NCBI GenBank assembly: GCA_015066665.1
Contig: SVNX01000008.1
Span: 1 to 64,000 of the forward strand
Origin: Ruminococcus sp.
GTDB lineage: Bacteria; Bacillota; Clostridia; Oscillospirales; Ruminococcaceae
DNA length: 64,000 nt
Direction: 5' to 3'
This document shows, in pieces, positions 25,720-55,828 of the stretch; within the stretch, counting starts at the first letter, position 1; each line of letters starts with the position of its first letter. Under the pieces are notes generated by a model, which made no database searches, was not told where the DNA came from, and saw only the letters and a list, made by a program, of their open reading frames with translations. The position numbers were made by a program, and so were the translations under genes.

Positions 25720-25787
25720 TGGTGAATTGCGGGGGGGCGATCCTTCGCTCAGGGGGGACTTGCGTCCCCCGTCGCTCAGGATTTGGT

Positions 25788-25891
25788 ACCCCCACCCCCA
25801 ACCCCCTCCCCCTTTCAGGGGGAGGGGGCTTTAGGGCGGGGGCTGCGCCCCCGCCGCCCGCCAAGGGGGCATCGCTTCGCTTGCCCCCTTT
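25788..25891 (+). repeat. GC-rich three-hairpin element, copy 5
   Basis: C-rich tract, CCCCTCCCCC/GGGGGAGGGG, GGCGGGGGC/GCCCCCGCC, CAAGGGGGCA/TGCCCCCTTTG. Followed to about 25990 by CCTCAAGCAGGGGG and GGACAGTCTGTTCGGCTCGG repeats shared with other copies. Confidence 0.9.
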
Positions 25892-26085
25892 GAACCCCCC
25901 TCAAGCAGGGGGATGTCCTCCTGCCCCCTCAAGCAGGGGGGGATGTCCTCCTGCCCCCCTTAGGACAGTCTGTTCGGCTCGGGGCACCCCAACCCCCTCC
26001 CCCACTCAGGGGGATAGCTGCTGTACTCCTTTGTACCCCCGCTCGCTGCTATCTCAGCAGCTATGGTGCTCTGCTTGCAAGCGCC

Positions 26086-26610
26086 ATGCGGTTCCCGAAA
26101 CCTGACCGCGATGTATGGTCTTCCGGACTATGCTGCACTCCCCTGACGCGGGCAACGGCACGGTTGCCGTGCCTTCCGCTTGCGCAGCATTGGTACCCCC
26201 ACCCCCAACCCCCTCCCCCTTCCAGGGGGAGGGGGCTTTGGGGCGGGGGCTGCGCCCCCGCCGCCCGCCAAGGGGGCATCGCTTCGCTTGCCCCCTTTGA
26301 ACCCCCCTCAAGCAGGGGGGATGTCCTCCTGCCCACCTTAAGACAGTCTGTTCGGCTCGGGGCACCCTCCTCCCCCACTCAGGGGGGAATAGCCGCTCTG
26401 CTTGCAAGCGCCATGCGATTCCCGAAGCCTGACCGCGATGTATGGTCTTCCGGACTAAGCTGCACTCCCCCGACGCGCCTAACGGCACGGTTGCCGTGCC
26501 TTCCGCTTGCGCAGCAAAGGAAGCTGCGGTTCCCGAAGCCTGACCGCGATGTATGATCTTCCGGACTCGCCCGCACTTCCCTGACGCGGGTAACAGCACG
26601 GTTGCCGTGC
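26086..26610 (+). repeat. Three copies of palindromic repeat B around element copy 6
   Basis: Copies at 26086-26172, 26410-26499 and 26525-26610. Each begins near GCGATTCCCGAAGCCTGACC, contains GCGATGTATGGTCTTCCGGA and ends in the 15-bp palindrome GCACGGTTGCCGTGC. No gene is found in 25720-26734. Confidence 0.85.
26195..26299 (+). repeat. GC-rich three-hairpin element, copy 6
   Basis: Same three stems as copy 5 with TTCCA as the first loop; sits between two copies of repeat B. Confidence 0.9.
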
Positions 26611-27636: not shown

Positions 27637-30600
27637 TTAATGCACGATGAAATAGCCGCTTGTGTAGGTCACACGGCCGCCGGCAACATAGTCGGTCTGA
27701 CTATTGAAATCATACCAGAGATGGCTGTCTGTTGCCTGTGAAACGTACTCAATCCGGTACACATCACCGGGCTTTGCATCCGCCGGAATCGTCAGAACAA
27801 CGGTGAACAGCGTGCCCGTATCCGTAACCGTACGGGTTGTTGCACCGCTCAGCCAGATGAGATCGCCGTTCTTGTAATCGGCAACCGGAATCTTAATGTC
27901 ACCGCCGTACGGGTCGATGGCATGATCATTCACCGCTGCCATACGGATGCCGAACTCATAGGAACTCACACCCGCATTATTGCTCAGATAAACAGGCACA
28001 GTCACTCTCTGACCGGCCGCTGCCGCATCCAGATACGAGGTGCCGATCTGCACATGCACATCGCCCTTCGCTGCAATCGTAATCGTGCAGGAAACGCTGC
28101 TTGTGCTTGTCGATGCTGTCACAACGGCTGTACCCGGGCTGATGCCTGTGACATAGGCATAGGCAAAGCCCGTGCTCGATGTGGGGGCGCCGAGCTTGAT
28201 GACGGCAGGATTCGAACAGCTCCAGTTCACAGTCGGATTGTCCGCATCCGCCAGTACCATGACCAGAAGCTGGTCGCCGACATGACCGTTCAGACTGCTC
28301 TGCACCATGGTCAGCTGGACATTCTCCACAACACGGATGACAATACTTGCACTGTAATCACGGGTGGTGGCAAGGCCGTAATAGGTCGCATGTGCTGTGA
28401 TGGTCGCTGTGCCCTCGGAAACGGCACTGAGATTGCCGCTGTTGTCTACGGAAAGAACGGAGCTGTCACTGCTTTCCCACGACATGACGATCATATTCGG
28501 GGTGTTGGTTGCTGCGGTCACGCGTGCTGTCTCACCCTTGCCGAGCAGTTCGGGGGCGGTCAGTGTGATCTCGGGGCTGACAACACGGATGCGGCAGACA
28601 TCCTTGTAGGTGATGCCGCCGAATGTGAGCGAGGCTGTGATATTCACATCGCCTGCATTGAGACAGGTCACAACGCCGCTGCTGGATACACTTGCGACAT
28701 TCGGATTGCTGCTCGTCCATTTGAGCTGTGTGGGCTTCATGGTGCAGCCGAGTGCATAGCTTTCGCCCGTGCACAGGTCGAGATTGTCATATTCAAGCGT
28801 CACTTCCGGTGTGCTGACCATGACGATGCAGGTGGCCTTCTTGCCGCCCGCAGCGGTTTCCGCTGTGATGGTCGCAGTGCCGGGGCCCTTTGCCACGACA
28901 AAGCCCGTGATGGTGACGGTGGCAACATCGGGATTATCCGAGCTCCAGTTCACCTGCTTATTCGTAGCGGTGGAGGGCGAAACGGTGGCGGCGAGCTGAA
29001 TCGAATCGCCGTAATTAAGCGAGGCAGTCTTTGTATTCAGGCTCACGCTTGCGGGGAGGATGATATTGCTGCCCTTGCTGACCTCAAGCAGGATGCTTGT
29101 GCCCTTGGGCTGGGAGGTACCGCCGGCAGGATTCTGCGTGATCACCTGACCTGCGGGGACGGTATCGCTGAAGATTTCGTTGACCTTGACGGTAAAGCCG
29201 GCGCTTCTGAGGGCGGATTCGGCATCCGCACGCTTCATGCCGACCACGGCAGGCACGCTGAACAGCTCCTCACCCGTGCTGATGGTCAGGATCACGGCAC
29301 TGCCGGCATAGACCTCGGTATTCGCACCGATGCTCTGGGCAAGGACGGTACCCTCGGCGGCAGTACTGCTGTGCTCATAGCCGACGGAAACGGTCAGACC
29401 CTTTGCGGAGAGTGCGGCACGGGCTTCTGCCTCGGTCATGCCGACAACACTTGGCATGGCAAAGGGCTTGCCGCCCTTGCTGACCACGAGGCTGATGGCT
29501 GTACCGGGATCGGTTTCGGCACCGGCGGGGGGATTCTGGGTCATGACGAGTCCTGCACGGACGGTATCGCTGGTTTCGTAGGAAATATTTGCCGTGAGGC
29601 CATTGGCTTCGAGCAGGGCAATGGCATCGGCCTCGGTACGGTACTGCACATCGGGCACACGGATGATCTGAATGCCGAGGGAGACCGTCAGCTCGATGGT
29701 GCTGCCGCTCATGATGGGCGTGCCGGGGGCGGCACTCTGCGCCATGATCGTATTTTCGGGATATTCCGCACTATAGGTACGGGTTTTGGCGAGGAGCATG
29801 AGACCGGCTTCCTGCGCAATCTGCTGGGCTTCCTCATAGGTTTTGCCGATGAATTCGGGGACGGTGATCTCCACGGCCTCAAAGGCTTCATTCGGGTCAC
29901 GGCCGAGGGAGATGGTCAGGACGATCTCTGTGCCGACGGGCATTTCGGTATTGCCGGCGATGCTCTGGGAGAGCACGGCACTTTCGGCCATGGCATTGCT
30001 GTAGGCATATTCCATCGAGACGGCAAAGCCAAGCGCTTTGAGCGACTGGATGGCATCCTCACTGTAAAGACCCTCGACATTGGGGATGACGGCCATCTGG
30101 GCGCCGCCGCTGACGACGAGGTCGATGAGGGTATTCTCTGCAACGACGGCACCGCCGCCGATGCTCTGGGTGAGAATCATATCTGCGGGAATCTTATCGG
30201 AATACTCCTTACCGGCGATGCTGTAGAGCAAAAGGGCATCGGTCAGGCGCAGCTCGGCATCGGCCATGCCGGTATTGACAACGGAGGGCACACGGGACAT
30301 GCCGTCGGGGATGAAGATGTGCTCCTGAATATCGTTGCGGAAGCCGATGATACCTGTGGCAAAGAGCGTACCGAGCGTAAGAATGAGCACGGCAGCGGTG
30401 GGCACAAGGATCTTTGCCCAGAGGGGCCATGTGAAGAAATCGACGCCCTTGATGCGGCCCTTCCGTCTGCGGACACGGGTTTCGCTTTTGAGTTCGGCGA
30501 TGAAATCGTTCATGGTTGCGGTTCTGTCCTCGGCACGGAGATTGAGTGCGTTGAGGATTGCATTTTCGAGATCATCGGGGATATCCTTGCAGTGCTTGGA

Positions 30601-31461
30601 GGCGGGCTGCAGAAGGTCGGTTCTCTTATTGCGAAGGCTTGTGAGGCGGTTGAGTGCATCGGGCGGGTCGATGCCCGTGATCATGCGGTAGAGCACAGCA
30701 CTGAGGGCATAGACATCGGTGAAGCTGCCCTGGGGGTCCTTGGACTGGTACTGCTCAACGGGCGAAAAGCCGGGCTTAATGAGCATGGTCAGGGATTTGC
30801 TGTGGGTACTGCTGGCATAGCGAGCGGCACCGAAGTCGATGAGCTTGGCCTTGCCGTCCTTGGTCAGGAAGACATTATCGGGGGCAATATCACGGTGGAT
30901 AATGCCGGTTTCATGGACACTTGCGAGGGACTCGGCGATGGGCAGAATGAGACCCACGGCTTCCTCATGGGGAATTTTTCCGTCACGTTCGAGGCGTGCG
31001 GAGAGGGTTTCGCCCTCGAGCAGCTCCATGATGATATAGGCGGTATTGTTTTCCTCGAAGGTATCGAAGATTTTGACGATGCCGTCGACGCTGCTGAATT
31101 TGGCGAGGCGTTTTGCTTCCTCATGGAATTTGACAAGACCGTCATGGAACTGTTCGGCACGCTGATCAGCTTCGCCGCCGATGATGGTCACGGCGGTGTC
31201 ACCGATGGCACGGGTGGAGAACTCACTGGGGAGGTACTCCTTGATGGCGACCTTGTGTTCAAGGAGGGCATCATAGCCGATATAGGTGACGCCGAATCCG
31301 CCGAAGCCAAGGCATTTTCCGACGATATAGCGTTCTCTGAGGACGGTACCCTGCGGAATATGGAGGGCATCATCCCCGACAGTCCGATCGCTTCCGCAGT
31401 GCGGGCAGACGGTAAGATTGTCATCATATTGTTCCATGCAGGACATACAGAATTGACTCAT
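27637..31461 (-). CDS. Transmembrane Ser/Thr kinase with PASTA, Ig-like and cohesin-like ectodomain
   Basis: 1274 residues starting at MSQFCMSC (AGGAGG upstream; the longer frame runs into a GC-rich repeat). A zinc ribbon has C5, C8, C19 and C22. The kinase domain (about 45-325) has the G-loop GFGGFG, Lys74, catalytic HRDIAPDN (D191) and DFG (D209), so it is probably active. One span lies at about 347-372. Outside are six PASTA repeats (about 388-790), four BIG2/Ig-like domains (about 790-1130) and a final 140 residues that look like a cohesin (VTVPVYLSNNAGVSSYEFGI, later TGTLFTVVLTIPADAKPGDV). PASTA kinases usually sense peptidoglycan; a cohesin would bind dockerins. The last gene of the kinase/phosphatase operon, 199 nt after the second kinase, with a GC-rich element between. 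Confidence 0.9.
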   Translation of the reverse strand: MSQFCMSCMEQYDDNLTVCPHCGSDRTVGDDALHIPQGTVLRERYIVGKCLGFGGFGVTYIGYDALLEHKVAIKEYLPSEFSTRAIGDTAVTIIGGEADQRAEQFHDGLVKFHEEAKRLAKFSSVDGIVKIFDTFEENNTAYIIMELLEGETLSARLERDGKIPHEEAVGLILPIAESLASVHETGIIHRDIAPDNVFLTKDGKAKLIDFGAARYASSTHSKSLTMLIKPGFSPVEQYQSKDPQGSFTDVYALSAVLYRMITGIDPPDALNRLTSLRNKRTDLLQPASKHCKDIPDDLENAILNALNLRAEDRTATMNDFIAELKSETRVRRRKGRIKGVDFFTWPLWAKILVPTAAVLILTLGTLFATGIIGFRNDIQEHIFIPDGMSRVPSVVNTGMADAELRLTDALLLYSIAGKEYSDKIPADMILTQSIGGGAVVAENTLIDLVVSGGAQMAVIPNVEGLYSEDAIQSLKALGFAVSMEYAYSNAMAESAVLSQSIAGNTEMPVGTEIVLTISLGRDPNEAFEAVEITVPEFIGKTYEEAQQIAQEAGLMLLAKTRTYSAEYPENTIMAQSAAPGTPIMSGSTIELTVSLGIQIIRVPDVQYRTEADAIALLEANGLTANISYETSDTVRAGLVMTQNPPAGAETDPGTAISLVVSKGGKPFAMPSVVGMTEAEARAALSAKGLTVSVGYEHSSTAAEGTVLAQSIGANTEVYAGSAVILTISTGEELFSVPAVVGMKRADAESALRSAGFTVKVNEIFSDTVPAGQVITQNPAGGTSQPKGTSILLEVSKGSNIILPASVSLNTKTASLNYGDSIQLAATVSPSTATNKQVNWSSDNPDVATVTITGFVVAKGPGTATITAETAAGGKKATCIVMVSTPEVTLEYDNLDLCTGESYALGCTMKPTQLKWTSSNPNVASVSSSGVVTCLNAGDVNITASLTFGGITYKDVCRIRVVSPEITLTAPELLGKGETARVTAATNTPNMIVMSWESSDSSVLSVDNSGNLSAVSEGTATITAHATYYGLATTRDYSASIVIRVVENVQLTMVQSSLNGHVGDQLLVMVLADADNPTVNWSCSNPAVIKLGAPTSSTGFAYAYVTGISPGTAVVTASTSTSSVSCTITIAAKGDVHVQIGTSYLDAAAAGQRVTVPVYLSNNAGVSSYEFGIRMAAVNDHAIDPYGGDIKIPVADYKNGDLIWLSGATTRTVTDTGTLFTVVLTIPADAKPGDVYRIEYVSQATDSHLWYDFNSQTDYVAGGRVTYTSGYFIVH

Positions 31462-31660: not shown

Positions 31661-33643
31661 TTACTCAGGCGATGCCCCTGCGGTATACACTGTCATATCC
31701 TCAAACAGCGGTGCATAATCCGCATACACATCCCCATAGACCTCGAGCGCCCTCTTGTTCAGAGGCAGTGCCGAAGCCTGATTGCGGATGTAGTAATGAT
31801 CCTGTGAATTATCACTGAGCAGGAATGTCATAAATCGCGATGCGGCTTTCTTTTCCGCCGATTTCAGACCGCTTCCCATGCTCCAGCATTCATCAAATGT
31901 GCAGGGCACGGAGGCAAGTCCCACCGCTGCCATGCGGTAGCGTGCGGGCATCGAGCGGCTGACGATCTCATACATCGCACTGTCCGACAGCAGGCTCTGT
32001 GCACTGCCGCTGTAGAACTGCTCCATGCTGACACCCTGCGCTACGGCATCCTCACCATAGAGCGATGCAAATATCTCACGGTCACGCACATCCACGGCAA
32101 AGCGGTCGCCTTCCGTTGTCAGCTCGTCCACTGCGCTCAGACGGTCGGCTGCAAAATGACATGTGGTCGAATTCACATAGACCACCGGCATGTTAAAGCC
32201 CGTCGGCAGCCTGTCATAGTCGGGATAAACCGTCTCATAGGCATCCAGCAGCCAGTAATCCTCCATCAGAACCGAGGCTGTCACATCGTCAAGCGGCGTG
32301 ATCATTTCCGCCGTCAGTTCAATTTCATCCGACCAGAACAGCGGCGGCATCTCGCCCGCTGCGGCGGCCTCGGCGATCCTGTCTTCATATTCAGCCTGCG
32401 GAATCTCCACAAGCTCAATGGTCACGGTGTCATAGTTTTCGCAGAACTCATCACGGATGGCTTCCAGTGCTTCCGCACGGCCGGCATCACCGGAAGGATA
32501 CCAGATCGCAAGTGACGCCTTCGGAAGTGTCTTTTCAGAACGCTGCTGATTCACACTCCACGCAAACAGGCCGCATCCCACGGCCACCGCTGCAAGCGAT
32601 ATGCCAAGCCCGAAGGCTCTGCGTCTCCTGCGGCGCTTTCGCTCCTTGGCAAGCGGCAGAACACGGCGCTTCTGCTGCAATGCTTCCTCAAATTCCGTAA
32701 TCGTTTTAAATCGCATGTGCGGCTCCATCGCCATTGCCTTCATGACCGTGTCATTGAGCTGGGGCGTAATGCCGCTCTGCAGTGCCGATACCTCTTCAAG
32801 CGGGTCGTTTTCCTCCGTGCGGTCGGTCGATTCCACGGGCTTGACGCCCGTGAGCATGTGATAAAGCGTCGCACCAAGGGCGTAAATATCCGTGAAATCG
32901 CCCTGCGGTGTGGTCGACTGGTACTGCTCCTTGGGCGCATAACCGGGCTTGATGATGATTGTCATCATGCGGGGATCCTCTTCCGTGATATTACCGGCAG
33001 GACGTGCCGCGCCAAAGTCGAACAGCTTGATGCCGCCGCCGTTGATCAGAAAGATATTATCCGGTGCGATGTCACGATGCACGAAGCCTTCCTTATGGAT
33101 GGATCTGAGCGCATTGCACATGCAAAGCGCAATTTCCACCGATGTATCCGGATCGATTCGTCCTTCATCGACCATTTTCATGTATTTATCAAGCGGCTGA
33201 CCGTCCATGTATTCCATTACGATATATGCAGTGCGGTTCGCCTCAAAATATTCAAAGACATTCACAATGTTCGGATGCGAGCCGAATCTCGCTACAATTC
33301 GCGCTTCCTCGATGAATTTGGCGAGATTGTAGTTATAAATCTTCTGCTTGTTGCCGCTGAACAGGATCACACGCTCCGTGCCCGGCGTGCGGTTCACAAG
33401 GCCATTGGGGAAGAACTCCTTGATCGCCACAATCGCATCGAGATTGTTGTCCCATGCTTTGTAGGTAATGCCAAAGCCGCCGGCGCCGCAGACCTCACCG
33501 ATAATGTAGCGGCTGTTCAGGATCGTGCCAGGTACAAGGTGATTCGCCACACGCTTGACACTGGACGGATCGTGCCCGCAATGCGGGCATTTCGGCTGCT
33601 TCGCATCATAGTCCTCAAAGCAGTTATAGCATTTGATTGCCAT
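31661..33643 (-). CDS. Transmembrane Ser/Thr kinase with a solute-binding-protein-like ectodomain
   Basis: 660 residues. N-terminal zinc ribbon (C5, C8, C19, C22) with the same spacing as in the other kinase. Kinase domain (about 46-320) has GAGGFG, Lys74, HRDIAPDN (D191) and DFG (D209). An arginine-rich stretch precedes a single span (about 343-365). The ectodomain (375-650; ASLAIWYPSGDAGR, later PPLFWSDEIE and LPTGFNMPVVYVNS) resembles family-1 sugar-binding lipoproteins of ABC transporters but has no lipobox since it is anchored by the span. GAGGTG precedes the ATG, 3 nt after the FHA gene. It could pass extracellular ligand binding to kinase activity. Confidence 0.85.
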   Translation of the reverse strand: MAIKCYNCFEDYDAKQPKCPHCGHDPSSVKRVANHLVPGTILNSRYIIGEVCGAGGFGITYKAWDNNLDAIVAIKEFFPNGLVNRTPGTERVILFSGNKQKIYNYNLAKFIEEARIVARFGSHPNIVNVFEYFEANRTAYIVMEYMDGQPLDKYMKMVDEGRIDPDTSVEIALCMCNALRSIHKEGFVHRDIAPDNIFLINGGGIKLFDFGAARPAGNITEEDPRMMTIIIKPGYAPKEQYQSTTPQGDFTDIYALGATLYHMLTGVKPVESTDRTEENDPLEEVSALQSGITPQLNDTVMKAMAMEPHMRFKTITEFEEALQQKRRVLPLAKERKRRRRRRAFGLGISLAAVAVGCGLFAWSVNQQRSEKTLPKASLAIWYPSGDAGRAEALEAIRDEFCENYDTVTIELVEIPQAEYEDRIAEAAAAGEMPPLFWSDEIELTAEMITPLDDVTASVLMEDYWLLDAYETVYPDYDRLPTGFNMPVVYVNSTTCHFAADRLSAVDELTTEGDRFAVDVRDREIFASLYGEDAVAQGVSMEQFYSGSAQSLLSDSAMYEIVSRSMPARYRMAAVGLASVPCTFDECWSMGSGLKSAEKKAASRFMTFLLSDNSQDHYYIRNQASALPLNKRALEVYGDVYADYAPLFEDMTVYTAGASPE

Positions 33644-33646
33644 GGA

Positions 33647-34984
33647 TTACACCTCAACGTCCGTATATTCATCCCAGGAGAAATTCCTGCCGCACAGCGG
33701 CATGAACAGGTATTTGCTGTCTCCGATCTGAATCTTATCATAAACACGCAGCTCGCGATACTGCATGAGCAGCTCGCCGTTCACATAAGTCAGACTTCTG
33801 CTGCGGCCGGGCTGGATGTAGTAACGGCGTGTCTTGGGATCGAAAATCACGATGGTATGGCACTCACGGGAGATACTCTTCTCCTCGGTCAGGGCAATGT
33901 CATTGGTCAGTGCACGGCCGATGAAATTCTGTCCGGCCTTGAGATTGAAGCTCTCGCCAAAATAGAAGCCGCTCAGACCGATGATCCAGCCAACCACGGG
34001 CTCGGCATCCTCAAACTGATAATATGCCATGGTCTTGCCCTCATCGATGATGTTGCGCTCCTTGGCTGCGGCAACAGCGTCGGCAAGATTCTGCTTGGCG
34101 TCCGCTGCGGTCTCCGCTGCGGGACGCGCGGGCGCCGGTGCTTCTGCCGGACGTGCACTCTGCTGACCCTGACGGAATACAGGATTGGCAGGCTGTGCGG
34201 GCATGGGCTGTGCCATCATCGGCTGACCCATCATCGGCTGTCCCATCATGGGCTGCGCCATCATGGGCTGACCCATCATGGGCTGTGCCATCATCGGCTG
34301 ACCCATCATCGGCATCATGGGCTGACCCATCATCGGCTGCTGCATCGGCTGCACGGGCTGCTGCACGGGATGCTGCATCGGCTGCTGTGCCGGAACGGAG
34401 GCAGGTTTTTCGGGCTGCACCGGCTTTGCCTTGGGTGCCTGCGGGAGGCTGCGGGAGGCTGCGGGATCGGAGAAATCGGAAGGATTCATTTTCTTGGCAC
34501 CGGAATCAGGGAATTCTCCATCCTTCGCTGTCATGGGACGCTCGCTCTTTCTGGGGGCAGATGCTTCCATTGCACTGTCAATGGGCGCACCGGGGGATTT
34601 TGCCGCAGTTTCACCGGAGAATCCGGCATGGTTCACGCCGGCGAAATCCTGCATCGGATCGTCGTCAGCGGACGACTGCGGACGCTTTTTTCCGAAAAGA
34701 GTGCCGATCTTCGAGAAAAATCCGGTGTCCATAGCCTCCTCACTATGAAGCGTATCGGCAAAGGTTTCCTCTTTCTGGGATGCAGGCATAGTCTGACCCC
34801 GCAAATCATCGGGACGTGCGGGGGCTTTGTTTGCCGCAGCATCGGGGGCTGCGATTCGTGTATCATTCATCTTCGCACGCTCTGCTGCTGCAGCGGCAGC
34901 CTCCTTACGGCAATGAGGGCATGCGTCATGGATATCCATATCATAGTAATGGTTGGGATTTTTCTGGCATCTTGTCAGCTTCAT
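33647..34984 (-). CDS. FHA-domain protein with zinc ribbon and Met-Gln-Pro linker
   Basis: 445 residues from the ATG at 34984 (a GTG three codons earlier is an alternative). A Cys-containing N terminus (CQKNPNHYY..ACPHC) looks like a metal ribbon. Residues about 200-270 are QPMMGQPMMAQ repeats. The FHA phosphopeptide-binding domain is at about 345-435, with NFIGRALTNDI and SRECHTIVIFD, and YVNGELL typical of the fold. No membrane span. As FHA domains bind phospho-Thr, it is likely a partner of the two kinases beside it. Confidence 0.88.
   Translation of the reverse strand: MKLTRCQKNPNHYYDMDIHDACPHCRKEAAAAAAERAKMNDTRIAAPDAAANKAPARPDDLRGQTMPASQKEETFADTLHSEEAMDTGFFSKIGTLFGKKRPQSSADDDPMQDFAGVNHAGFSGETAAKSPGAPIDSAMEASAPRKSERPMTAKDGEFPDSGAKKMNPSDFSDPAASRSLPQAPKAKPVQPEKPASVPAQQPMQHPVQQPVQPMQQPMMGQPMMPMMGQPMMAQPMMGQPMMAQPMMGQPMMGQPMMAQPMPAQPANPVFRQGQQSARPAEAPAPARPAAETAADAKQNLADAVAAAKERNIIDEGKTMAYYQFEDAEPVVGWIIGLSGFYFGESFNLKAGQNFIGRALTNDIALTEEKSISRECHTIVIFDPKTRRYYIQPGRSRSLTYVNGELLMQYRELRVYDKIQIGDSKYLFMPLCGRNFSWDEYTDVEV
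34195..34350 (-). repeat. 15-bp tandem repeat coding the QPMMG/QPMMA linker
   Basis: Repeats of the type CATCATGGGCTG/CATCATCGGCTG within the FHA gene; length change would stay in frame. Confidence 0.8.
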
Positions 34985-35027
34985 ACAATTCACTCTTTCT
35001 GATTTTCGATCAATCTATATAATGTAT

Positions 35028-35825
35028 TCACTCATCCTGTGCAAGGCAGCGGATGAGAATGAACGACGTGTTGTCACGGACGAGCAGATCGCATTCGTCG
35101 ATCATACGCTCGATGATCTCCATGGCTTCAGGGACGGTTTTTCCGCCGATCTGCGTGAGATCGTCCATGTTAATGGCATTGTACAGCCCATCCGATGTGA
35201 GCAGTACAAAATCCCCCGGATACAGGGGAAGAGGTGCGGCGGGCGTGTCCATCAGACGGATGCCGCCGATCCCGAGAAAGCTCGTGAGCGAGCCGTGTTT
35301 CTTCGCTTCGCCGTCGAACTGTTCCTGCGTAATGCGTTTCTGGGCGAGTCTGTCGAGCAGCTGTTCGCCGTAGGTGTGATCCCGTGTGACCTGCACAAGG
35401 TCGCTCTCACGCAGCACATAAATGCGGCTGTCACCGACGGACAGCCAGTGCAGCAGATTCTCCCGCAGGATGACGGAAACAATCGTTGTGCCCGCTTTCA
35501 GGCGGTTTTTGTTCTCATCCTCAAGGAAATACACCTTTGCGTCAAGCAGATCGACACTGTCTTCATAAAAGCCCGAAGGATCGGCAAGCGACTCCTCCAT
35601 GAACAGATTGAAGAGCAGATCCACCGCTGTGCGGCTGGCCACATCGCCGCCGCCGAGTCCGCCCATGCCGTCACACACTGCGGCAAGGACGGTGCCGTCC
35701 CGCTCGGTCACGAGCATGCTGTCCTCCTGACAGGTGCGTGTCCCGATGTCCTGCCAGGCACCGATCTCATATCTCTGGCTGCCGCAGATAAACTGCGATA
35801 CTCCGTAATTTTTTTGTACTTCCAT
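35028..35825 (-). CDS. PP2C-family Ser/Thr phosphatase
   Basis: 265 residues. The metal-binding motifs CDGMGGLGGGDVAS, SVGDSRIYVLR and LTSDGLYNAI are present. It begins one base after the preceding PP2C gene stops. It would reverse phosphorylation by the operon's kinases (inference from context and family). Confidence 0.93.
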   Translation of the reverse strand: MEVQKNYGVSQFICGSQRYEIGAWQDIGTRTCQEDSMLVTERDGTVLAAVCDGMGGLGGGDVASRTAVDLLFNLFMEESLADPSGFYEDSVDLLDAKVYFLEDENKNRLKAGTTIVSVILRENLLHWLSVGDSRIYVLRESDLVQVTRDHTYGEQLLDRLAQKRITQEQFDGEAKKHGSLTSFLGIGGIRLMDTPAAPLPLYPGDFVLLTSDGLYNAINMDDLTQIGGKTVPEAMEIIERMIDECDLLVRDNTSFILIRCLAQDE

Positions 35826-35826
35826 G

Positions 35827-36549
35827 TCATATCCTCACGGCAATGGCCGTATGATTGTCCATCGTCATGCCGCTGCCGTTCTTCTTCACATCGGCAAGCA
35901 TGAGCGCCATCCAGTCCTGTGCGGTTTTCGTTTTCTTCAAGTGGCGGCACATCTCCTTTTCGGTGATGCACTCCCAGAAGCCGTCGCTGCACAGTAGGAA
36001 GGCCTGGCACTTGGAAAGTGGGCGAACGTCCGAAATTTCGTACTTTTTCCCCTCCCACGGAATTCCCATCACACGCAGCAGACAGTTGCGGTCGGGATGG
36101 AGACGGATGTCCTTTTCCTTGATCTCGCGGGCGTTCACGAGCATCTGCGGGACGCTGTGGTCGAGCGTGCGAAGGACGTCCTTGTTTCTGTGGAAGACAT
36201 AGAGCCGTGAATCGCCGATATACCCCCAGATGGCCGATGTCTCGTCACAAATGAGCACCGTCAGCGTGGTCTTGAGGTCGGAAAAAGCACGCAGCTCAGC
36301 CTGCTTGGCAAGCAGTGCCGCCTGTGCCTTTTCAAAGGCTTCTGCAAGGAATTCTGCCGATAATTCGCCCTTTTCTTCGAAAAGAGAAATTACCGCTTCC
36401 ACAGCCATCTCCGAGGCAACCTCCCCCCTGCCATGTCCGCCGAGTCCATCGGCGAGCACATAGCATGAAAGCGTGTCCCGTGTGGCCGTTCTGGCAAAAT
36501 CCTCGTTGATGTCACGATTTCCCAGCTCAGAAATCATACTGCAATCCAT
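35827..36549 (-). CDS. PP2C-family Ser/Thr phosphatase, first gene of kinase operon
   Basis: 240 residues starting at MDCSMISELG; GGCGGTG lies upstream. Metal-binding motifs LADGLGGHGRGEVASEM, YIGDSRLYVF and LCSDGFWECI are present. It is shorter than its downstream neighbour and the two are clearly paralogous, not duplicates of each other. Confidence 0.92.
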   Translation of the reverse strand: MDCSMISELGNRDINEDFARTATRDTLSCYVLADGLGGHGRGEVASEMAVEAVISLFEEKGELSAEFLAEAFEKAQAALLAKQAELRAFSDLKTTLTVLICDETSAIWGYIGDSRLYVFHRNKDVLRTLDHSVPQMLVNAREIKEKDIRLHPDRNCLLRVMGIPWEGKKYEISDVRPLSKCQAFLLCSDGFWECITEKEMCRHLKKTKTAQDWMALMLADVKKNGSGMTMDNHTAIAVRI

Positions 36550-36618
36550 TGTTTCACCGCCAGATTCATAAAAAATTGCGCTCTCGCGCCGTTGGGGACA
36601 TACCTCCCCATTGTTATT

Positions 36619-36647
36619 ATTGTACAATATGTACAGCTAAAAGTCAA
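36619..36647 (-). promoter_or_regulatory. Promoter of the kinase/phosphatase operon
   Basis: Minus strand TTGACT, 17-nt spacer, TACAAT; the start would be about 60 nt before the first PP2C gene. Confidence 0.75.
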
Positions 36648-36759: not shown

Positions 36760-36879
36760 CGGGATACACATATTGTGCAATGTGCCAAAAACAGAGAAAA
36801 TCCGCAGAATCATCCAATCTTTTCACATTTCGGTTGTTATATAAGAAAGGGACTGTAGCCCGTGAAAGGAGTGCTGACT

Positions 36880-37152
36880 ATGAAAAAAATGAAGGCTTAT
36901 CTGACCGCCCTGCTGCTGGCGGCATCCTTGTGCAGCGGCGGGATTCCGGCGTTTGCAGCAAAGGAAAATGCCGATTTACAGGCAAATTATGCAGTGATCG
37001 GGGTGGATGTTGTGATGGTGAACCGTCATGTAATGGGCGCCGACATGGCACGCACTACAATGAACACGGACGCCGCCGACTTTGACAAGAACGGCGAAGT
37101 CACCCACGAGGACTCCCTCTCCATTCTCAAGAGACTGGTGGGGCTGGTGTAG
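36880..37152 (+). CDS. Small secreted protein with half-degenerate dockerin
   Basis: 90 residues from the ATG with AAAGGAG upstream. A signal peptide (MKKMKAYLTALLLAASLCSG, cleavage after AFA) is followed almost immediately by one dockerin. Its first repeat (ANYAVIGVDVVMVNRHVMG) has lost the calcium loop; the second (DFDKNGEVTHEDSLSILKRL) is intact. No enzymatic domain is present. The last about 80 bases are almost identical to those of the dockerin gene at 38511-39248. Confidence 0.75.
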   Translation: MKKMKAYLTALLLAASLCSGGIPAFAAKENADLQANYAVIGVDVVMVNRHVMGADMARTTMNTDAADFDKNGEVTHEDSLSILKRLVGLV

Positions 37153-37245
37153 CATCTGCCAGAGATATGCTGAAAATGTGCATTCTGCACAAAAACAAGC
37201 TGTTGATTTCGTACGATATAACATGTATTTTTTCATGGTTTTTCA

Positions 37246-37274: not shown

Positions 37275-37327
37275 GAAATTACAGGGAAGCTTTTCCTGTA
37301 AAATGATTATTGAAAGGGGAAATTTTT

Positions 37328-38494
37328 ATGAGACGAATGAAAAGTCTGGCAGCGATTGCTGTCATCGGGGCAATGGTATCGGGAATGGGTGCATTGCCGG
37401 CGGCGGCGTACGATCCGTGCGATGTGAATCAGGATGGGACGGTGAGCATGATTGATGTCATTGCCATTAACCAGCATCTGGCAGGTACAAGGTATTTCAC
37501 AGACTACAATAAGCTGGATGCTAACCGGAGTCATACGATTGACAAGACGGACAGCAACTGTGTACTGCAAAAATTGGTTGCTAACAGTTATTCTGCATGT
37601 TACATCCGCCAATATCCCAATGCATACATGGGAGTGGTGAATATGCCAGCTGTTTCAAGTACGGTTGTATTGGATGATTCAGCTAATAACACGCAAGGCA
37701 GATGGTACATCGGGTATTCCTATCTTGATAACGCAGCCATCCCCCGCTATCAGTTGACACCAACAACTGCGCCCCTGAGTTCAACACATTCTAATCAGTC
37801 AAGAAGTTTAGTCAATGGTGATGATAATCGTGGCATAGCGCATGGATATGAAAATACTGGTATTGTATATGTCGGTGGTACAACAGGATTTATCGTGGGT
37901 GATCATCAGATTGCTACAGCTGCGCACTCTGTAACTAGTGGTACTACAATTGAGCGAAATGTTGAAGTTTTTACTTATGATCGTACAGGACTGCCAGTTG
38001 AAGGAGGCGAATTAACTGTAGCTGAAATCCATATCCCAGAGGATTACACAGTAGCTTGTACGGAATACGATTATGCACTCATTACAGTTGTAGAGGATTT
38101 GTCAGATTACGTACATTTTAATATTGGCAATAGCTATAATATGACAGCTGATGAAGCAGGAACGATTCCGATTCATGTGACAGGATGTCCTCAATACATA
38201 GGAAATAATTCGGAAATAGAGAATACATCAAAGACTCTCTACACGCACAATGGAAGCATTTTTGGGAATGACAACAAATCGCTTTTCCATTACACTGCTG
38301 ACACAACCGGCGGTCAGAGCGGCGCACCTGTTTATACCATTACTCGTGAGCGATATAATAATACAGATTATTATACCTACACTGCGCTTGCCATTCATAC
38401 AGGGGGCGCAGGCAGTGCGTACAATTTTGGTACTTTAATGTCGCAGTACCATGTTCAGTTCTACGGAAACAACCCGAATATCAGCTATCAGTAA
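37328..38494 (+). CDS. Secreted trypsin-like (V8-type) serine protease with N-terminal dockerin
   Basis: 388 residues. Signal peptide (1-27), then a dockerin at about 28-88 with loops DVNQDGTVSMID and DANRSHTIDKTD, then a chymotrypsin-fold protease: His200 in IATAAHSV, Asp248 in EYDYALITV and Ser331 in TTGGQSGAPVY. GAAAGGGG precedes the ATG. The dockerin is at the N terminus, which is less usual than C-terminal. Base composition of the protease part is more AT-rich than its neighbours, suggesting transfer. Confidence 0.87.
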   Translation: MRRMKSLAAIAVIGAMVSGMGALPAAAYDPCDVNQDGTVSMIDVIAINQHLAGTRYFTDYNKLDANRSHTIDKTDSNCVLQKLVANSYSACYIRQYPNAYMGVVNMPAVSSTVVLDDSANNTQGRWYIGYSYLDNAAIPRYQLTPTTAPLSSTHSNQSRSLVNGDDNRGIAHGYENTGIVYVGGTTGFIVGDHQIATAAHSVTSGTTIERNVEVFTYDRTGLPVEGGELTVAEIHIPEDYTVACTEYDYALITVVEDLSDYVHFNIGNSYNMTADEAGTIPIHVTGCPQYIGNNSEIENTSKTLYTHNGSIFGNDNKSLFHYTADTTGGQSGAPVYTITRERYNNTDYYTYTALAIHTGGAGSAYNFGTLMSQYHVQFYGNNPNISYQ

Positions 38495-38510
38495 TAAAGG
38501 AGGTCATATT

Positions 38511-39248
38511 ATGAAAAAAAGAGTAACAGCATTATTGACCGCCCTCTGCTGCCTGTGTGCACCTCTGACTGCATATGCGGAATCTGTCGATGTGGATGTG
38601 GAATTCACCTATATGACCGACACGTTTACCTACAGAACGAATCATCGATATGGTGACGGAAGCGGTTTTTATCTCGAGTCAGAGATTGCTGATCCGGATT
38701 TCATGGTGGTGGGCTATTTTTATCGTGACGAATCGCCTGAAATATATTGTTATGCGGTGACCCCCATCAATGATGATCATCTGATCAAGCGTGGCACAGG
38801 CCAACTGGAACTTATCACTGTGGAAAGCGAGCTGGGAGATCAGGAGCTTGAGATCGGCGATCTGCTCAAGATTGACGGTGAAATTGATGTAGCTGAATGT
38901 GATCCAGTGATCTATTGTCCGGCAGAACCCGGCACCATGTCCTATCTTGGCAATGGCATTGACGTGTTCGGTGAGGAATTTGCAAGAGTTATCCGTATGC
39001 AGATGTATATTGATCTGAAAGCGTATTATGAATCTCCTGACCATTATTTTGGTCTGCACATTGTACACGGTGACGTCAACGTGGACGACAACCTCAGCAT
39101 CGTTGACTGCGTCATGCTCAACAAGAGCCTGATGGGTGATGAAACCCTGTGTGACTACGCAGAACTGGCCGCCGACTTTGACGAGAACGGCGAAGTCACC
39201 CACGAGGATTCCCTCTCCATTCTCAAGAGACTGGTGGGGCTGGTATAA
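38511..39248 (+). CDS. Secreted dockerin protein of unknown function
   Basis: 245 residues. Signal peptide (MKKRVTALLTALCCLCAPLT, then AYAES). The middle (25-170) is beta-rich and not recognised. The C-terminal dockerin has HGDVNVDDNLSIVDCVMLNK and DFDENGEVTHEDSLSILKRL. AAAGGAGG precedes the ATG; 16 nt after the protease gene, so probably co-transcribed with it. Confidence 0.8.
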   Translation: MKKRVTALLTALCCLCAPLTAYAESVDVDVEFTYMTDTFTYRTNHRYGDGSGFYLESEIADPDFMVVGYFYRDESPEIYCYAVTPINDDHLIKRGTGQLELITVESELGDQELEIGDLLKIDGEIDVAECDPVIYCPAEPGTMSYLGNGIDVFGEEFARVIRMQMYIDLKAYYESPDHYFGLHIVHGDVNVDDNLSIVDCVMLNKSLMGDETLCDYAELAADFDENGEVTHEDSLSILKRLVGLV

Positions 39249-50138: not shown

Positions 50139-50350
50139 GGGGTGGGGGTGCAGAGCTTACGCTGCGAGCCGCCTTATTTACGTCATTTTATGGATTTCCT
50201 ACCCTTTTTTTCTGATTTGGGTAGTGTGCAGAAACGGAATTTCTGTTATGATATCTGTAAGGGAAAAGAACGGATCCGCCTGCATGCATGGATGGTTTCT
50301 TTGTACGGTGCCTGCGGGGATCCCTATGACGCAATATGGAGGTTGGAAAA

Positions 50351-52714
50351 ATGAAAAAGACATACAAGCGTTTCCTATCCGCAGCAGCTGCGGCGGCCAT
50401 GGTTTTCTGCACAGCGGTCAGCCCTGTTTCGGCGGCAGAACTGAATACATACGATGCAATCGTCAGCATTGCCTATCCCCGTCCCGATGAGGCAGTGCAG
50501 AAGCCTGTGATCACAGATTCGGGCACAGAAATCGAGTTTCTCGGCGGCTTCTGGATTGAATCAAGCACAGGCTATGCAAAGATGTATGATCACCCCGTGA
50601 TCACATGGATGATGGAAGTGGGAGGCTTTGCAGGTTATGATGGCTATTTCACGACATTCACAGATGCGGACAAGTATGATGTCACCATTCTTGGCAGGAT
50701 CGAAAATTACACAGGTTTGTCAAGCAATCAGGGCGAGGCGACCTTTGTGGATGCCGCCACCGGTGAAACCATCGACACGGGCGATGTACAGGTCATGTCA
50801 GTATCGGCACTGCTCTCCATGCTTGGAAGTGAAACAGAGCTTCCTGACGGACTGACAGCGTCCGATGCGCTTGTGACGATTTCCATAGACGGAGAATTGA
50901 TGTGTTCGCCGGAGGGGCATCTCCACGAATCTTCAGGATATTATGCATACGATGAAAATCAGCACTGGCATGTATGCGAATGTGGTACTGCATTAAGAGG
51001 CACCGCTTATGATCACTCCTGCGCATACACAATTAACGAGCCTTGGCAGATTGTCAAAACCGCCACAGAAACAGAAAGCGGACTGTGGGAAAAGAAGTGC
51101 TTCTGCGGACAGGTCATGGAATCCATCATCATTCCGCCGAAAAGCGAGCAGACCATTGTTTCCACATATGAGGCACTGAAGTCCGCACTTGCGGAGGGCG
51201 GAAAGCAGTGGATCACACTTGATGTGAGCGGATCGACAAAATGGACGGTGCAGACCGATATGGAATACAACAATATGCTTGTTCTGGATGATCCCTCGGC
51301 GGACATCGTACTGGATCTGAACGGCTGCGGTCTTGCAAGAGAAACGGGCAGATATGACGAGGCACTGTTTGATATTGCGGCGGGTTCGCTGAGAGTCATC
51401 AGCAAATCGGTGGCGACACCTACGGACAGCACGACAAATCTGAATTTTTCAAGTGCTGCAAGCAAGGACTGCGTATTCCGTGTGCATGAGGGCGCATCGC
51501 TCCGTCTGACAAATGTTTCTGCCATGTCTCCTACGGACGAATTTGCATACAGCTGTCCGTCTGTGATCTCTGAGGGCAATCTGCAGATCGACGGCGGAAG
51601 CTATTATCTGTATGACAACGAGTTCACGCCTTCGCAAAGCGAGTATGCACTGGCTTCCATCGTTCTTGACGGCGGTACGGCTGTCATCAACGGCGGCACA
51701 TTCGACGGTAAAGGCTGCGGAATGCTCGTCAGAGGCGACACAAAGCTCACCATTAACGATGGCTATTTCAACAGTTGGGATTACGGATTGTATCAGACAG
51801 GCAACGCAAAGGTGATCATCAACGGCGGAATGTTCGGCGATGATGAAGACCCCCATAGCTTTGGCTTTTATATGGACGGCGGTACAGCAAGAATTTACAG
51901 CGGAAGCTTTTACGGAAAAACAGCGGGTGCGTATGCAAAAAGCGGTGATATCCGTATCAGCAAAGGCTATTTCAAAATGACGGAAGACACGGGATATGGT
52001 GCATTTTCGTTCAACGTAACAGATGTCAGTGCCGAGATCATCCGCGGCGACTTCAGAGGCGCAAAAGGCATCTCCACCCGCTGGGATCTGTTCGATGAGT
52101 TCACAGAAAAGGAACCAAGCGCATACATCGCTTACGGCTCCACTGCAGCAGATGCAGGAAAGTTGATTGACCTTTCCGTAGCAACAACATATATCGGCGA
52201 GGATTATCTTGAAGTCACAACAACCAAGCCTGTATTTACCTTGCAGCCTGAGGATGCAGTGATCTATGAGGGCGGCAGTGCTGCGTTTAAGGTGGAAGCT
52301 GATCATGCTGACAGCTATGTCTGGTATATCACGGATGCGGATGATGATTCTCTTCAGCCATATGACTGGGCGGATGTGGCACGTTACTGCGATGTATCGG
52401 GAATCGAATCGGATACACTGATCATCGAAAACGTCGGAAGCTGGCTGAATGACAAGGCCGTTTACTGCGAGGCATACAACGGCAGCTACATGCTTTCGGA
52501 TACGGCCGTGATCACGGTCAAGCAGATGATACGAGGCGATGTCAATGCAGATGATGCCTTCACACTTATGGATGTGGTTATGCTGCAGAAGTGGCTGCTC
52601 TGCACACCGGATGCCGCACTGACCAACTGGCGTGCGGGCGATCTGCGTGAGGATGGGCGGATGGATGCTTTTGACCTTTGCATTATGAAACGTGAGCTGC
52701 TTGCGGCGCATTAA
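50351..52714 (+). CDS. Secreted dockerin protein with a parallel beta-helix region
   Basis: 787 residues from MKKTYK (GGAGG upstream). Signal peptide 1-34. A middle stretch (about 300-560) has short repeats of the type GGTAVINGGTF, DTKLTINDGYF, NAKVIINGGMF, GGTARIYSGSF and GDIRISKGYF, as in right-handed beta-helix proteins. A Cys/His pair HWHVCECG and KKCFCG lies at about 200-260. An Ig-like domain follows, then a C-terminal type-I dockerin (about 730-787, GDVNADDAFTLMDVVMLQKW). No catalytic residues can be assigned. A possible extended -10 (TGTTATGAT) is at 50245-50252. Confidence 0.82.
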   Translation: MKKTYKRFLSAAAAAAMVFCTAVSPVSAAELNTYDAIVSIAYPRPDEAVQKPVITDSGTEIEFLGGFWIESSTGYAKMYDHPVITWMMEVGGFAGYDGYFTTFTDADKYDVTILGRIENYTGLSSNQGEATFVDAATGETIDTGDVQVMSVSALLSMLGSETELPDGLTASDALVTISIDGELMCSPEGHLHESSGYYAYDENQHWHVCECGTALRGTAYDHSCAYTINEPWQIVKTATETESGLWEKKCFCGQVMESIIIPPKSEQTIVSTYEALKSALAEGGKQWITLDVSGSTKWTVQTDMEYNNMLVLDDPSADIVLDLNGCGLARETGRYDEALFDIAAGSLRVISKSVATPTDSTTNLNFSSAASKDCVFRVHEGASLRLTNVSAMSPTDEFAYSCPSVISEGNLQIDGGSYYLYDNEFTPSQSEYALASIVLDGGTAVINGGTFDGKGCGMLVRGDTKLTINDGYFNSWDYGLYQTGNAKVIINGGMFGDDEDPHSFGFYMDGGTARIYSGSFYGKTAGAYAKSGDIRISKGYFKMTEDTGYGAFSFNVTDVSAEIIRGDFRGAKGISTRWDLFDEFTEKEPSAYIAYGSTAADAGKLIDLSVATTYIGEDYLEVTTTKPVFTLQPEDAVIYEGGSAAFKVEADHADSYVWYITDADDDSLQPYDWADVARYCDVSGIESDTLIIENVGSWLNDKAVYCEAYNGSYMLSDTAVITVKQMIRGDVNADDAFTLMDVVMLQKWLLCTPDAALTNWRAGDLREDGRMDAFDLCIMKRELLAAH

Positions 52715-53430: not shown

Positions 53431-53787
53431 ATGACGACAAAACAGGATGCCATCCGGCATTGCCTCGGTTATCCCGATGCCTATGAGGATTATCCCTTCC
53501 ATGACCCCAATTGGTGCGTCATAAGACATCGCAGCAATCACCGTGTCTTTGCCTGGATCTTCGATAAGGACGGCTTTGTCTGGATCAATGTCAAATGTGA
53601 CCCCGCATGGACGCAGTTCTGGCGGGATGCCTTCCCCGCTGTCCGCCCCGCTTATCACCTCAATAAAACCCACTGGAATTCCATCATCCTCGATGGCTCC
53701 ATCCCCACTGAGGATATCCATACCATGATCCGTGAAAGCCATCAGCTTACCGCCCCTAAACGGAAAGGAGCCCCCCATGCTCGCTAA
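53431..53787 (+). CDS. MmcQ/YjbR family protein
   Basis: 118 residues, cytosolic. DAYEDYPFHDPNW, IDKDGFVWINVKCDP-like FDKDGFVWINVKCD, and HLNKTHWNSIILDGSIP are the usual landmarks of the MmcQ/YjbR (CyaY-like fold) family of possible DNA-binding proteins. GGAGG precedes the ATG. It overlaps the next gene by 11 nt. Confidence 0.87.
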   Translation: MTTKQDAIRHCLGYPDAYEDYPFHDPNWCVIRHRSNHRVFAWIFDKDGFVWINVKCDPAWTQFWRDAFPAVRPAYHLNKTHWNSIILDGSIPTEDIHTMIRESHQLTAPKRKGAPHAR

Positions 53788-55828
53788 ATTCTTCTCTGCT
53801 GCCATCGCAGCTGCCCTCCTCCTCTCCCCCCTCCATGCACTCCCCGCATCCGCCGATGCGTCCCCTTCGACAGAACCCGCAATCGAATCCACTACGGAAT
53901 CCACGACCGATACCGCTCCCGCATCCACGACCGCATCTTCCACAGAGATTCCCACCACTGAAATCTCCACAGAACCGACCACTGAAACCACCACCGAAAT
54001 CACCACCGAGCCGACCGAACCCGCTCTTTCCCCTGCAAAAATCTATGCCGACCGCATCTATACCGAAATCATGGGACAAGCACCCGATGAGGCGACCCTT
54101 CAGGCGCTTGCCTCGTCCCTTGCTTCCCACGAAACAACCGTTTCCGCTGCCGTTCTCACGCTCCTTGAGAGCGAGACCCATACAAACCGGCTGACCACCA
54201 ATGCTACTTATGTCACCCTGCTCTACCGTGCCCTCCTCGGGCATGATCCCGATCCCGCAGGCCTCGACCACTGGTGCGAGCATCTGCGGTACTTCAGCCG
54301 CCGCTCCGTCCTGCGCAGCATCCTCGGCTCCGGTGAAGCGGGCGCCCTCATTAAAGAAGCCGGACTCTCCCGCGGTACCCTCTCCCTCCCCGAAGCACGG
54401 GATCAGAATCCCGCCCTCACCCGCTTTGTCTGCCAGATGTATCTCGCTGCCCTTGACCGCATGCCCACTGTCGGCGAATCCAATGCCGCTGCGGGGGATC
54501 TCCTCTCCGGCACACGCTCGCTGAGCGTCATCTGCCTCGATCTCCTCGAGTCCGATGCCTTCGTGCAGATGCATCCGGACGATGCCGCCTACATCCGTGC
54601 GCTCTCCCTGATCTTCACCGGCGCCGAGCCGTCCATTCCGGAGCTGACGGCCCATCTCGATGCGCTCCGCACCGGCATGACACGGTTCTCCGTCTTCCTT
54701 GCCTATGCCAAATCCGAGCGTGCCGCACAGTATCTTGCCAATCACGGCTTACCCGATGCCTGTGCCGATCTTGCCTATGCATTCCCGCAGGTGTCGGCCA
54801 ATGCCAAGTACTATATCTACCTCTCGCCGAGCTTTGATGCCTCGGGGCTGGGCTATGTCTATGCCGGTCAGATTCTGACCGTGACGGGACTGCAGGGCGA
54901 ATGGCTCGAGGTTTCCTTCCACAACCGGACGGGCTATATCCACCGTGAACGGGTCGCCGGTTATGAGGGCGAGGGCATCCGTGTGCTGCCCGTTTCGAAC
55001 ATCCCGCAAAGCTCCAACATCGGCGGCACGCCGCTCCCGACCGGCTGCGAGGTCGCTTCGCTCTCCGTGCTGCTGCTCTATCTCGGCTATGACGGTGCCG
55101 GCAAGAATCTTCTCGCCAACACCTATATGCCCAAGGGCACGATCGGCCAGACCGACCCCCGCTATGCCTTTGTCGGCACACCCGAATATGCAAGCTCCTA
55201 TGGGGCATTCTCCGGCGTCATGATCCAAACCTGCAACAATTATTTCAATGCCATCGGCAGCACACGCCACACCATCCGTGACATCAGCGGTGCGGACAAG
55301 GAGGCACTCTATGCGCAGATCGATGCCGGTCATCCCGTGCTCGTCTGGTACACGATGAACTGCACAACCAAGCGGACTTACGGTGCAACATGGAGCCTGC
55401 GGCGGGGCACCTCTTGGACGGAGCCCGGCACCGGCACCTACAGCTTCACATGGCGCAACAGTGAGCACTGCTCAGTGCTTGTGGGCTACAACCGTGTGAA
55501 GGACACCGTGATTCTGGCCGATGTCTGGGCCAACAGCGGTGCTGCCTCGGGCGGACTCACGGAATACAGCGCCGACAAATTCTTCAGTGCCTATGAATGG
55601 CTCGACCGGCAGGCACTCATCATCACCGATGAAGCGGCACCCTTTGCCCCCGGCGATGTGAACACGGACGGCACGGTCTCGGCACTCGATGCCGTGCTGA
55701 TGCAGCAGCATCTTGTACATGGCGTACCGCTCACCGATGCCGGAGCCAAGGCCGCCGACCTCGATTTTGACAATCACATCACGGCGTTCGACCTCTCGCT
55801 GCTCAAGCGAAAGCTCCTGCAAACATAA
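53777..55828 (+). CDS. Secreted C39-type cysteine peptidase with DUF4214, SH3-like and dockerin domains
   Basis: 683 residues from MLAKFF (GGAAAGGAG upstream). Signal peptide (1-27), Thr/Glu/Pro-rich linker (28-85), two DUF4214-like helical segments (about 86-330, VTLLYRALLGHDPDPAGLDH), an SH3b-like domain (about 340-396), and a C39_2-like peptidase (about 404-617) with PTGCEVASL (Cys424), HCSVLVGY (His564) and LADVW (Asp582). The C-terminal dockerin (625-683) has GDVNTDGTVSALDAVLM and DLDFDNHITAFDLSLLK. Its reading frame begins inside the MmcQ gene. Confidence 0.85.
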   Translation: MLAKFFSAAIAAALLLSPLHALPASADASPSTEPAIESTTESTTDTAPASTTASSTEIPTTEISTEPTTETTTEITTEPTEPALSPAKIYADRIYTEIMGQAPDEATLQALASSLASHETTVSAAVLTLLESETHTNRLTTNATYVTLLYRALLGHDPDPAGLDHWCEHLRYFSRRSVLRSILGSGEAGALIKEAGLSRGTLSLPEARDQNPALTRFVCQMYLAALDRMPTVGESNAAAGDLLSGTRSLSVICLDLLESDAFVQMHPDDAAYIRALSLIFTGAEPSIPELTAHLDALRTGMTRFSVFLAYAKSERAAQYLANHGLPDACADLAYAFPQVSANAKYYIYLSPSFDASGLGYVYAGQILTVTGLQGEWLEVSFHNRTGYIHRERVAGYEGEGIRVLPVSNIPQSSNIGGTPLPTGCEVASLSVLLLYLGYDGAGKNLLANTYMPKGTIGQTDPRYAFVGTPEYASSYGAFSGVMIQTCNNYFNAIGSTRHTIRDISGADKEALYAQIDAGHPVLVWYTMNCTTKRTYGATWSLRRGTSWTEPGTGTYSFTWRNSEHCSVLVGYNRVKDTVILADVWANSGAASGGLTEYSADKFFSAYEWLDRQALIITDEAAPFAPGDVNTDGTVSALDAVLMQQHLVHGVPLTDAGAKAADLDFDNHITAFDLSLLKRKLLQT

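Follow-up and report, generated by a model that had tools for sequence, protein, structure and literature searches.

Does a bacterial Ser/Thr kinase that ends in a cohesin use this module to dock dockerin proteins and to report their presence to the cytoplasm? The question is raised by a gene in a 64,000-nucleotide stretch (the window) of contig SVNX01000008.1 from the draft genome of a Ruminococcus sp., which encodes a transmembrane kinase with PASTA repeats, Ig-like domains and, by homology, a C-terminal cohesin (the tail). A docking receptor is plausible, given the cohesin assigned by sequence, the retained kinase motifs, and the scaffoldin-like proteins and 89 dockerin matches of the same genome. 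That docking of a dockerin protein at the cohesin tip signals through the kinase has, in our estimate, about an even chance of being correct.

A PASTA kinase with an extended ectodomain

The open reading frame (ORF) begins with an ATG at position 31461 of the minus strand and extends over 27640-31461 with a stop codon in addition, in agreement with the extent given by an earlier note on this DNA. The kinase domain retains VAIK at residue 71, HRD at 189 and DFG at 209, as is expected of the catalytically complete enzyme that the note had proposed. It is preceded by two CxxC pairs (residues 5-22) that we read directly, Pfam zinc ribbons matching only at E 0.22-0.26. Hydropathy, computed by script, places a single predicted membrane helix between the kinase domain and the PASTA repeats, and this arrangement together with the catalytic motifs identifies the protein as a PASTA Ser/Thr kinase. 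Six PASTA and four Ig-like repeats had been counted in the note; Pfam returns the six PASTA repeats and three Big_2 domains, and the fourth Ig-like (Big_2-like) unit, at about residues 1048-1131, is placed by eye. The ectodomain is predicted to be oriented towards the cell surface.

The terminal module is a cohesin by sequence

In a scan of the genome the tail matches Pfam Cohesin at 25 bits (E 2.7e-5), narrowly above the cut-off of 24.1, and in a scan of the whole protein the match, at residues 1146-1245, scores 19.3 bits (E 0.0014) and lies under it. The six best PDB matches of the tail alone (E 1e-4 to 0.008) all bear the name of a cohesin or of an anchoring protein, and one of the six is ScaE (2zf9); a cell-wall anchoring protein by name, 4iu2, is among the PDB matches of the tail or of the A1 profile (eight relatives, the tail included). 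Comparison of the tail alone by hhalign with five ScaA/ScaB cohesins of its own genome (Sca names are our reading of gene order and architecture) gives E 2.3e-6 and a probability of 89%, compared with E 0.9 in a control against the protein's own four Big domains, and no match of the tail to Ig-like domains was found in the profile comparisons. The A1 profile matches solved cohesins down to E 6e-14 and the profile of the genome's own ScaA/ScaB cohesins at E 7e-10. A model of seven related cohesins that leaves out the tail scores it at 75 bits, as against 10 bits for the best of 3000 shuffled sequences, a result to be given less weight because similarity to the tail guided the choice of the seven, which are not fully independent of it.

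The Pfam genome scan, the PDB matches and the hhalign comparison bear out the cohesin-like terminal module described in the earlier note, and we take the module to be a genuine cohesin, a fold assignment that rests on sequence. A scan of viral contigs found no relatives of the tail. A locus on the genome contigs (L124) was tried as an added relative for the structure-prediction alignment and rejected, as it aligned too poorly with the tail.

Cohesin subfamily and the likely dockerin partner

Among subfamily models the highest score for the tail, 88 bits, comes from a set of 8 single cohesins whose partners are sortase-like, TIR or dockerin, followed by the C39-lipoprotein clade (65 bits, 19 sequences), ScaB (40 bits, 26), ScaE-like (27 bits, 3), ScaA (22 bits, 3) and ScaC (10 bits, 2); the models differ in size, so that the scores are not strictly comparable, and the tail had served as query in finding some rows of the 88-bit group. 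The C39 protein and two relatives look lipoprotein-like by eye. The closest match within the genome, C3, is a 293-residue ORF (33% identity, E 3e-19) composed of a cohesin, a T-rich linker and a C terminus that by eye is sortase-like. A tree of 111 domains puts the tail, weakly, on the single-cohesin side, away from ScaA, ScaB and ScaC. The genus commonly has single cohesins that are not joined to a kinase. The tail alone, run against 148 of the family's genomes (a subset of a larger group), matched 21 at E <= 0.1, with none outside the genus better than 4.6e-6. By these comparisons the tail is of the single-cohesin surface or adaptor kind that is found throughout the genus. Nine of the ten scanned proteins of its cohesin family also match Dockerin_1 at E <= 0.01 (two below the cut-off), so the family lives in a dockerin system.

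A separate lipoprotein-like ORF on contig C34 of the same genome (L070:1411-2247, plus strand) ends in the N-terminal half of a cohesin, and the stretch before it resembles the C-terminal half. It is possibly a circularly permuted cohesin, with only the N-terminal half significant, and similar partial matches occur across the genus.

The genome, a draft of 2.03 Mb in 40 contigs that is 77% complete, has 89 dockerin matches, 87 of them above the cut-off. A home-made motif script sorts them into types of our own definition, with 32 in type A, 33 in type B and 19 in the symmetric type C, and the five remaining read as type C by eye. One contig carries, around an assembly gap, the genes for proteins that we interpret as ScaC, ScaA and an X-dockerin-bearing ScaB. 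Like that of a scaffoldin, the kinase's cohesin shares its genome with dockerin proteins and a sca-like cluster. The ScaB X-dockerin reads as type C, and three of the five scanned type C hosts other than phage proteins carry LRR_5 (leucine-rich repeats). Outside the window, the two type A hosts scanned are plant-wall enzymes (a GH9 with CBM3 and a pectate lyase) and the one type B host scanned is a transglutaminase-like protein. The organism appears to build plant-fibre-degrading enzyme complexes.

In R. flavefaciens, symmetric group-4 dockerins, including those of ScaB and CttA, bind the ScaE cohesin, and dockerins of groups 1, 3 and 6 bind ScaA, ScaB or ScaC (PMC5301203, section 9). By this analogy, and because the tail resembles surface-type single cohesins, type C dockerins are its likelier partners, and it would be expected to prefer them to the types A and B encoded next door.

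The tip changes between orthologs and recurs on a TIR protein

A whole-protein search of 36 other genomes of the genus identified two orthologs over the kinase and PASTA regions, in genomes G009 and G020; the next best match after these covers the kinase only (E 3.6e-79 versus 4e-214). Each ortholog adjoins an SBP_bac_8 kinase. Over residues 1-1132 the G009 protein can be aligned at 46%, beyond which it continues into Big_3 and LRR_5, and the G020 protein has four PASTA matches and one Big_2 match; neither has a cohesin. This change of tip at a domain border makes an assembly chimera less likely and points to the tip as the part of the protein that adapts and faces the ligand. By eye, neighbouring genes in both G009 and G020 look Tad-pilus-like. 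An LRR_5 protein of more than 2500 residues with a dockerin reading as type C (L072:3-7661, plus strand) is convergent with the kinase ortholog in G020.

A cohesin of the same family occurs in genome G035 at residues 234-382 of a protein with an N-terminal TIR domain (E 2.2e-20) and a membrane helix at 170-194. Seven cohesin ORFs have a hydrophobic segment beyond residue 110. In two of these, the window kinase and the G035 protein, a signalling domain precedes the segment; in the other five the segment lies at the C terminus. That one cohesin family is joined to two different signalling domains is the best hint that the fusion is functional. Among the matches listed, 95 ORFs match the A1 cohesin model, a number in which overlapping loci are counted more than once, and one of them, the window protein, also matches the kinase; other kinase-cohesin fusions may exist. 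We suggest, tentatively, that cohesin-tipped transmembrane signalling proteins such as these may form an as yet unnamed class of receptors of bacteria with cellulosome-type systems, which would read docked dockerin proteins, those of the cell's own complexes first and possibly phage tails, and pass the information to the cytoplasm.

Dockerins on phage tail proteins

Two genes of the same genome encode phage distal tail proteins (Dit) with a type C dockerin, one of them adjoining tail and tape-measure genes. Matches over Dit and dockerin together amount to 10 copies, one with an internal stop, in 7 of 38 genomes of the genus; of these copies, domain scans cover the two in the window's own genome. 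INPHARED has 19 matching records, none of which spans 80% of the Dit-dockerin query; in the 15 listed the match stops short of the dockerin, at residues 142-144. Phages with such proteins may dock on the host's own cohesins to adsorb.

A possible mechanism and its alternatives

In the mechanism that we favour, a rod of PASTA and Big domains would take the cohesin out through the cell wall. The cohesin would capture a protein that bears a dockerin, most probably of the symmetric type C, for which the ScaB X-dockerin and leucine-rich-repeat proteins are candidates. Capture, or tension on the docked complex, might alter ectodomain clustering and hence the activity of the cytoplasmic kinase, and the cluster's own FHA protein and pair of PP2C phosphatases would process the output.

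Several points weigh against this reading. We infer dockerin binding, the choice of dockerin and the coupling to the kinase alike, and a cohesin is present in just one of the three orthologs found. The position of the tail in the tree is weak, the ScaA/ScaB/ScaC split having 70/88 support with a midpoint root and an unsettled bootstrap. Identity between the tail and any characterised cohesin is low, so its binding face is not mappable. A single-sequence AlphaFold model of the tail is all-beta with ten strands at low confidence (mean pLDDT 45.9, pTM 0.41); the cohesin fold is a nine-strand jelly-roll. Pfam Cohesin misses the closest relatives (0 of 10 scanned proteins at E <= 0.01), and the TIR, C3 and C39 proteins are likewise without a match at this threshold, so it is profile comparison and matches to PDB entries that tie the family to cohesins. 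Whether putative modules of this kind are authentic is treated as an open question by Dassa et al. (PMC4081043, section 6). On the other side, Ruminococcus cohesins, according to section 7 of a 2024 survey, often escape the hidden Markov models of Pfam/InterPro and are recognised only from predicted structures (PMC11557425).

A module with the cohesin fold could bind something other than a dockerin (a glycan, another surface protein or itself) or could cap the Ig-like rod. The whole-protein Pfam score under the curated cut-off and the failure of Pfam to find the relatives fit this explanation, as do the LRR_5 repeats at the same place in the G009 ortholog, where the position may need only some adhesive module, and paper titles that name cohesin domains outside cellulosomes. 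We nevertheless consider it unlikely in view of the many dockerins in the genome, the dockerins that nearly all scanned members of the family themselves carry and the reported escape of Ruminococcus cohesins from detection. It is similarly doubtful that a true cohesin docks a dockerin protein as a mere anchor, with no signal from docking and with PASTA repeats that, as in PrkC-type kinases, make the kinase responsive to peptidoglycan. The presence of six PASTA repeats, the commonness of kinase-less single cohesins in the genus and the lack of a cohesin in the G020 ortholog are what such an anchor would predict, but a kinase would be an odd choice of anchor when other surface-type cohesins exist, and the joining of a same-family cohesin to TIR in another species suggests that signalling is the point.

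The cohesin-tipped kinase or TIR receptor might instead serve in defence, detecting phage at the surface through the type C dockerins on phage tails. The Dit-dockerin genes, both the two in the genome and the full-length matches across the genus, and the G035 TIR protein speak for this, as does PADLOC, in which PD-T4-6 (defence kinase) models match the window kinase at E 4.8e-90 and the neighbouring SBP-type kinase at E 3e-52, and the TIR protein is matched by ThsB models (E 1.5e-11); the PADLOC matches make a defence role slightly likelier and, with the Dit-dockerin find, keep it open. However, the PADLOC matches cover general kinase, PASTA or TIR regions and are not specific, and those of the two kinases probably reflect a general kinase match. 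There is no PADLOC match for the FHA protein, one PP2C or the two ORFs beside the TIR gene (the other PP2C has one match), nor a full-length Dit-dockerin match in G035, and the Dit-dockerin may be an adhesin that uses the host's cohesins. We accordingly rate a role in defence as improbable. Least probable of all, and to our minds hardly credible, is that the fusion is an assembly chimera. The single instance of kinase plus cohesin, the incomplete 40-contig assembly and the GC content at third codon positions (0.61 in the tail versus 0.68-0.73 upstream) would allow it, but the frame is open through the join, the join lies at the domain border where an ortholog also changes, and the tail is no copy of any other cohesin found in the genome, the best being the 33% match noted above.

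Kinase cluster and dockerin genes of the window

Features of the window and of the related loci (L numbers) in this and other genomes
Feature	Position	Strand	Basis or genome
Ser/Thr kinase, transmembrane, with PASTA, Big_2 and C-terminal cohesin, 1274 aa	27640..31461	-	ORF, translation, Pfam
Cohesin-type module, C-terminal, residues 1133-1274	27640..28065	-	Pfam, PDB matches, profile comparisons
Four Big_2-like domains, about residues 804-1131	28069..29052	-	Pfam E 3.5e-27 for three; fourth by eye
Six PASTA repeats, about residues 387-799	29065..30303	-	Pfam E 1.2e-86, 6 stretches
Predicted transmembrane helix, about residues 349-369	30355..30417	-	Hydropathy script
Kinase domain, residues 47-315	30517..31323	-	Pfam Pkinase E 4.4e-31
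Second kinase of the cluster, SBP_bac_8-like ectodomain	31661..33643	-	Pfam
FHA-domain protein	33647..34993	-	Pfam
PP2C-type phosphatase	35028..35825	-	Pfam
PP2C-type phosphatase, first gene of the cluster	35827..36627	-	Pfam
Short secreted peptide with degenerate dockerin, possibly a remnant	36862..37152	+	Divergent from the kinase cluster
Trypsin-like protease with N-terminal dockerin, type A	37310..38494	+	Dockerin scan, motif script
Protein with C-terminal dockerin, type A	38451..39248	+	Dockerin scan, motif script
Protein with C-terminal dockerin, type B	50336..52714	+	Dockerin scan, motif script
C39-like peptidase with DUF4214, SH3_3 and dockerin (type B)	53732..55828	+	Dockerin scan, motif script
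TIR, membrane helix, cohesin and MORN-like (by eye) repeats	L171:1094-3028	-	G035
Dit (phrog_33) with type C dockerin	L257:6018-6749	-	Own genome, contigs C34 and C6 (with L258)
Dit (phrog_33) with type C dockerin	L258:6372-7154	+	Own genome, contigs C34 and C6 (with L257)

The earlier note had drawn part of its argument from dockerin genes near the kinase. The window does contain five dockerin matches (at 36973, 37421, 39066, 52535 and 55649), but about 2.8 are expected per 64 kb from 89 in 2.03 Mb, and the Poisson chance of five is about 0.15. All five are of types A and B, with none of the symmetric type C, and the match at 36973 is degenerate, scoring below the Pfam cut-off and lacking, by eye, a normal first calcium loop. 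As there is no clear excess and the type is not that expected for a surface cohesin, we dropped the window dockerins as evidence for a partner. The stretch 36880-39248, from which the note would have taken dockerins for binding assays, turned out not to be one reading frame (49 stops) and contains three ORFs. The protease-dockerin gene was also rejected as a conserved partner, because its G020 ortholog is on a different contig from the kinase.

The region of the short peptide has an 80-nt repeat in common with 39168-39247. The window's stretches 25731-26610 and 45070-45588 have dispersed repeats in common, in blocks of about 180-200 nt with 93-95% identity. Elsewhere in the genome (L074, C38:49089-53304) another kinase adjoins a type C dockerin protein, and this locus also has ORFs matching both parts of the trypsin-like dockerin protease.

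Relation to known systems

PASTA-type Ser/Thr kinases (PrkC/PknB) resemble the window kinase in having a cytoplasmic kinase, one membrane helix and extracellular PASTA repeats, and the ectodomain of PrkC/PknB orthologs consists of PASTA repeats only. The window kinase departs from this pattern in the CxxC pairs before its kinase domain, in the four Big domains and the cohesin that follow its six PASTA repeats, and in being clustered with an SBP-type kinase, an FHA protein and two PP2C phosphatases.

ScaE of R. flavefaciens is an anchoring scaffoldin that binds ScaB and CttA (PMC4081043, section 6; PMC5301203, section 9). The window protein would be like it in holding one cohesin at the cell surface, and 2zf9 and 4iu2 are among the PDB matches. 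In contrast to ScaE, which has a sortase signal, the window cohesin is anchored through a predicted membrane helix that leads to a kinase, and the ScaE-like model scores it at only 27 bits.

The window kinase would likewise link extracellular fibre degradation to the cytoplasm as RsgI-type anti-sigma receptors do in Acetivibrio-type cellulosomes. RsgI-type receptors detect polysaccharide with carbohydrate-binding modules, as described in a 2025 review (PMC12484212), whereas the window kinase would detect protein by docking. RsgI_N has no match in the window's own genome (one genome, 77% complete). CotH kinases are docked to the cellulosome by a dockerin. A CotH kinase is a component of the complex, whereas the window kinase is cytoplasmic by prediction and itself carries the cohesin. 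The 2025 review ties the kinase activity of CotH proteins to the cellulosome (PMC12484212), and in the main text of four other papers the word kinase is absent. Titles and abstract starts among the matches listed from the open-licence literature contain no cohesin fused to PASTA, a kinase, TIR or a two-component protein, which is weak evidence.

According to section 17 of the 2024 survey (PMC11557425), the RsgI receptors that sense polysaccharide belong to Acetivibrio-type cellulosomes alone, so that the way in which a cell monitors a Ruminococcus-type system from within is still a question. If our reading is true, a kinase with a cohesin in its ectodomain would be a direct protein-to-protein link from the enzyme complex to the cytoplasm, and a natural design for receptors gated by cohesin-dockerin binding.

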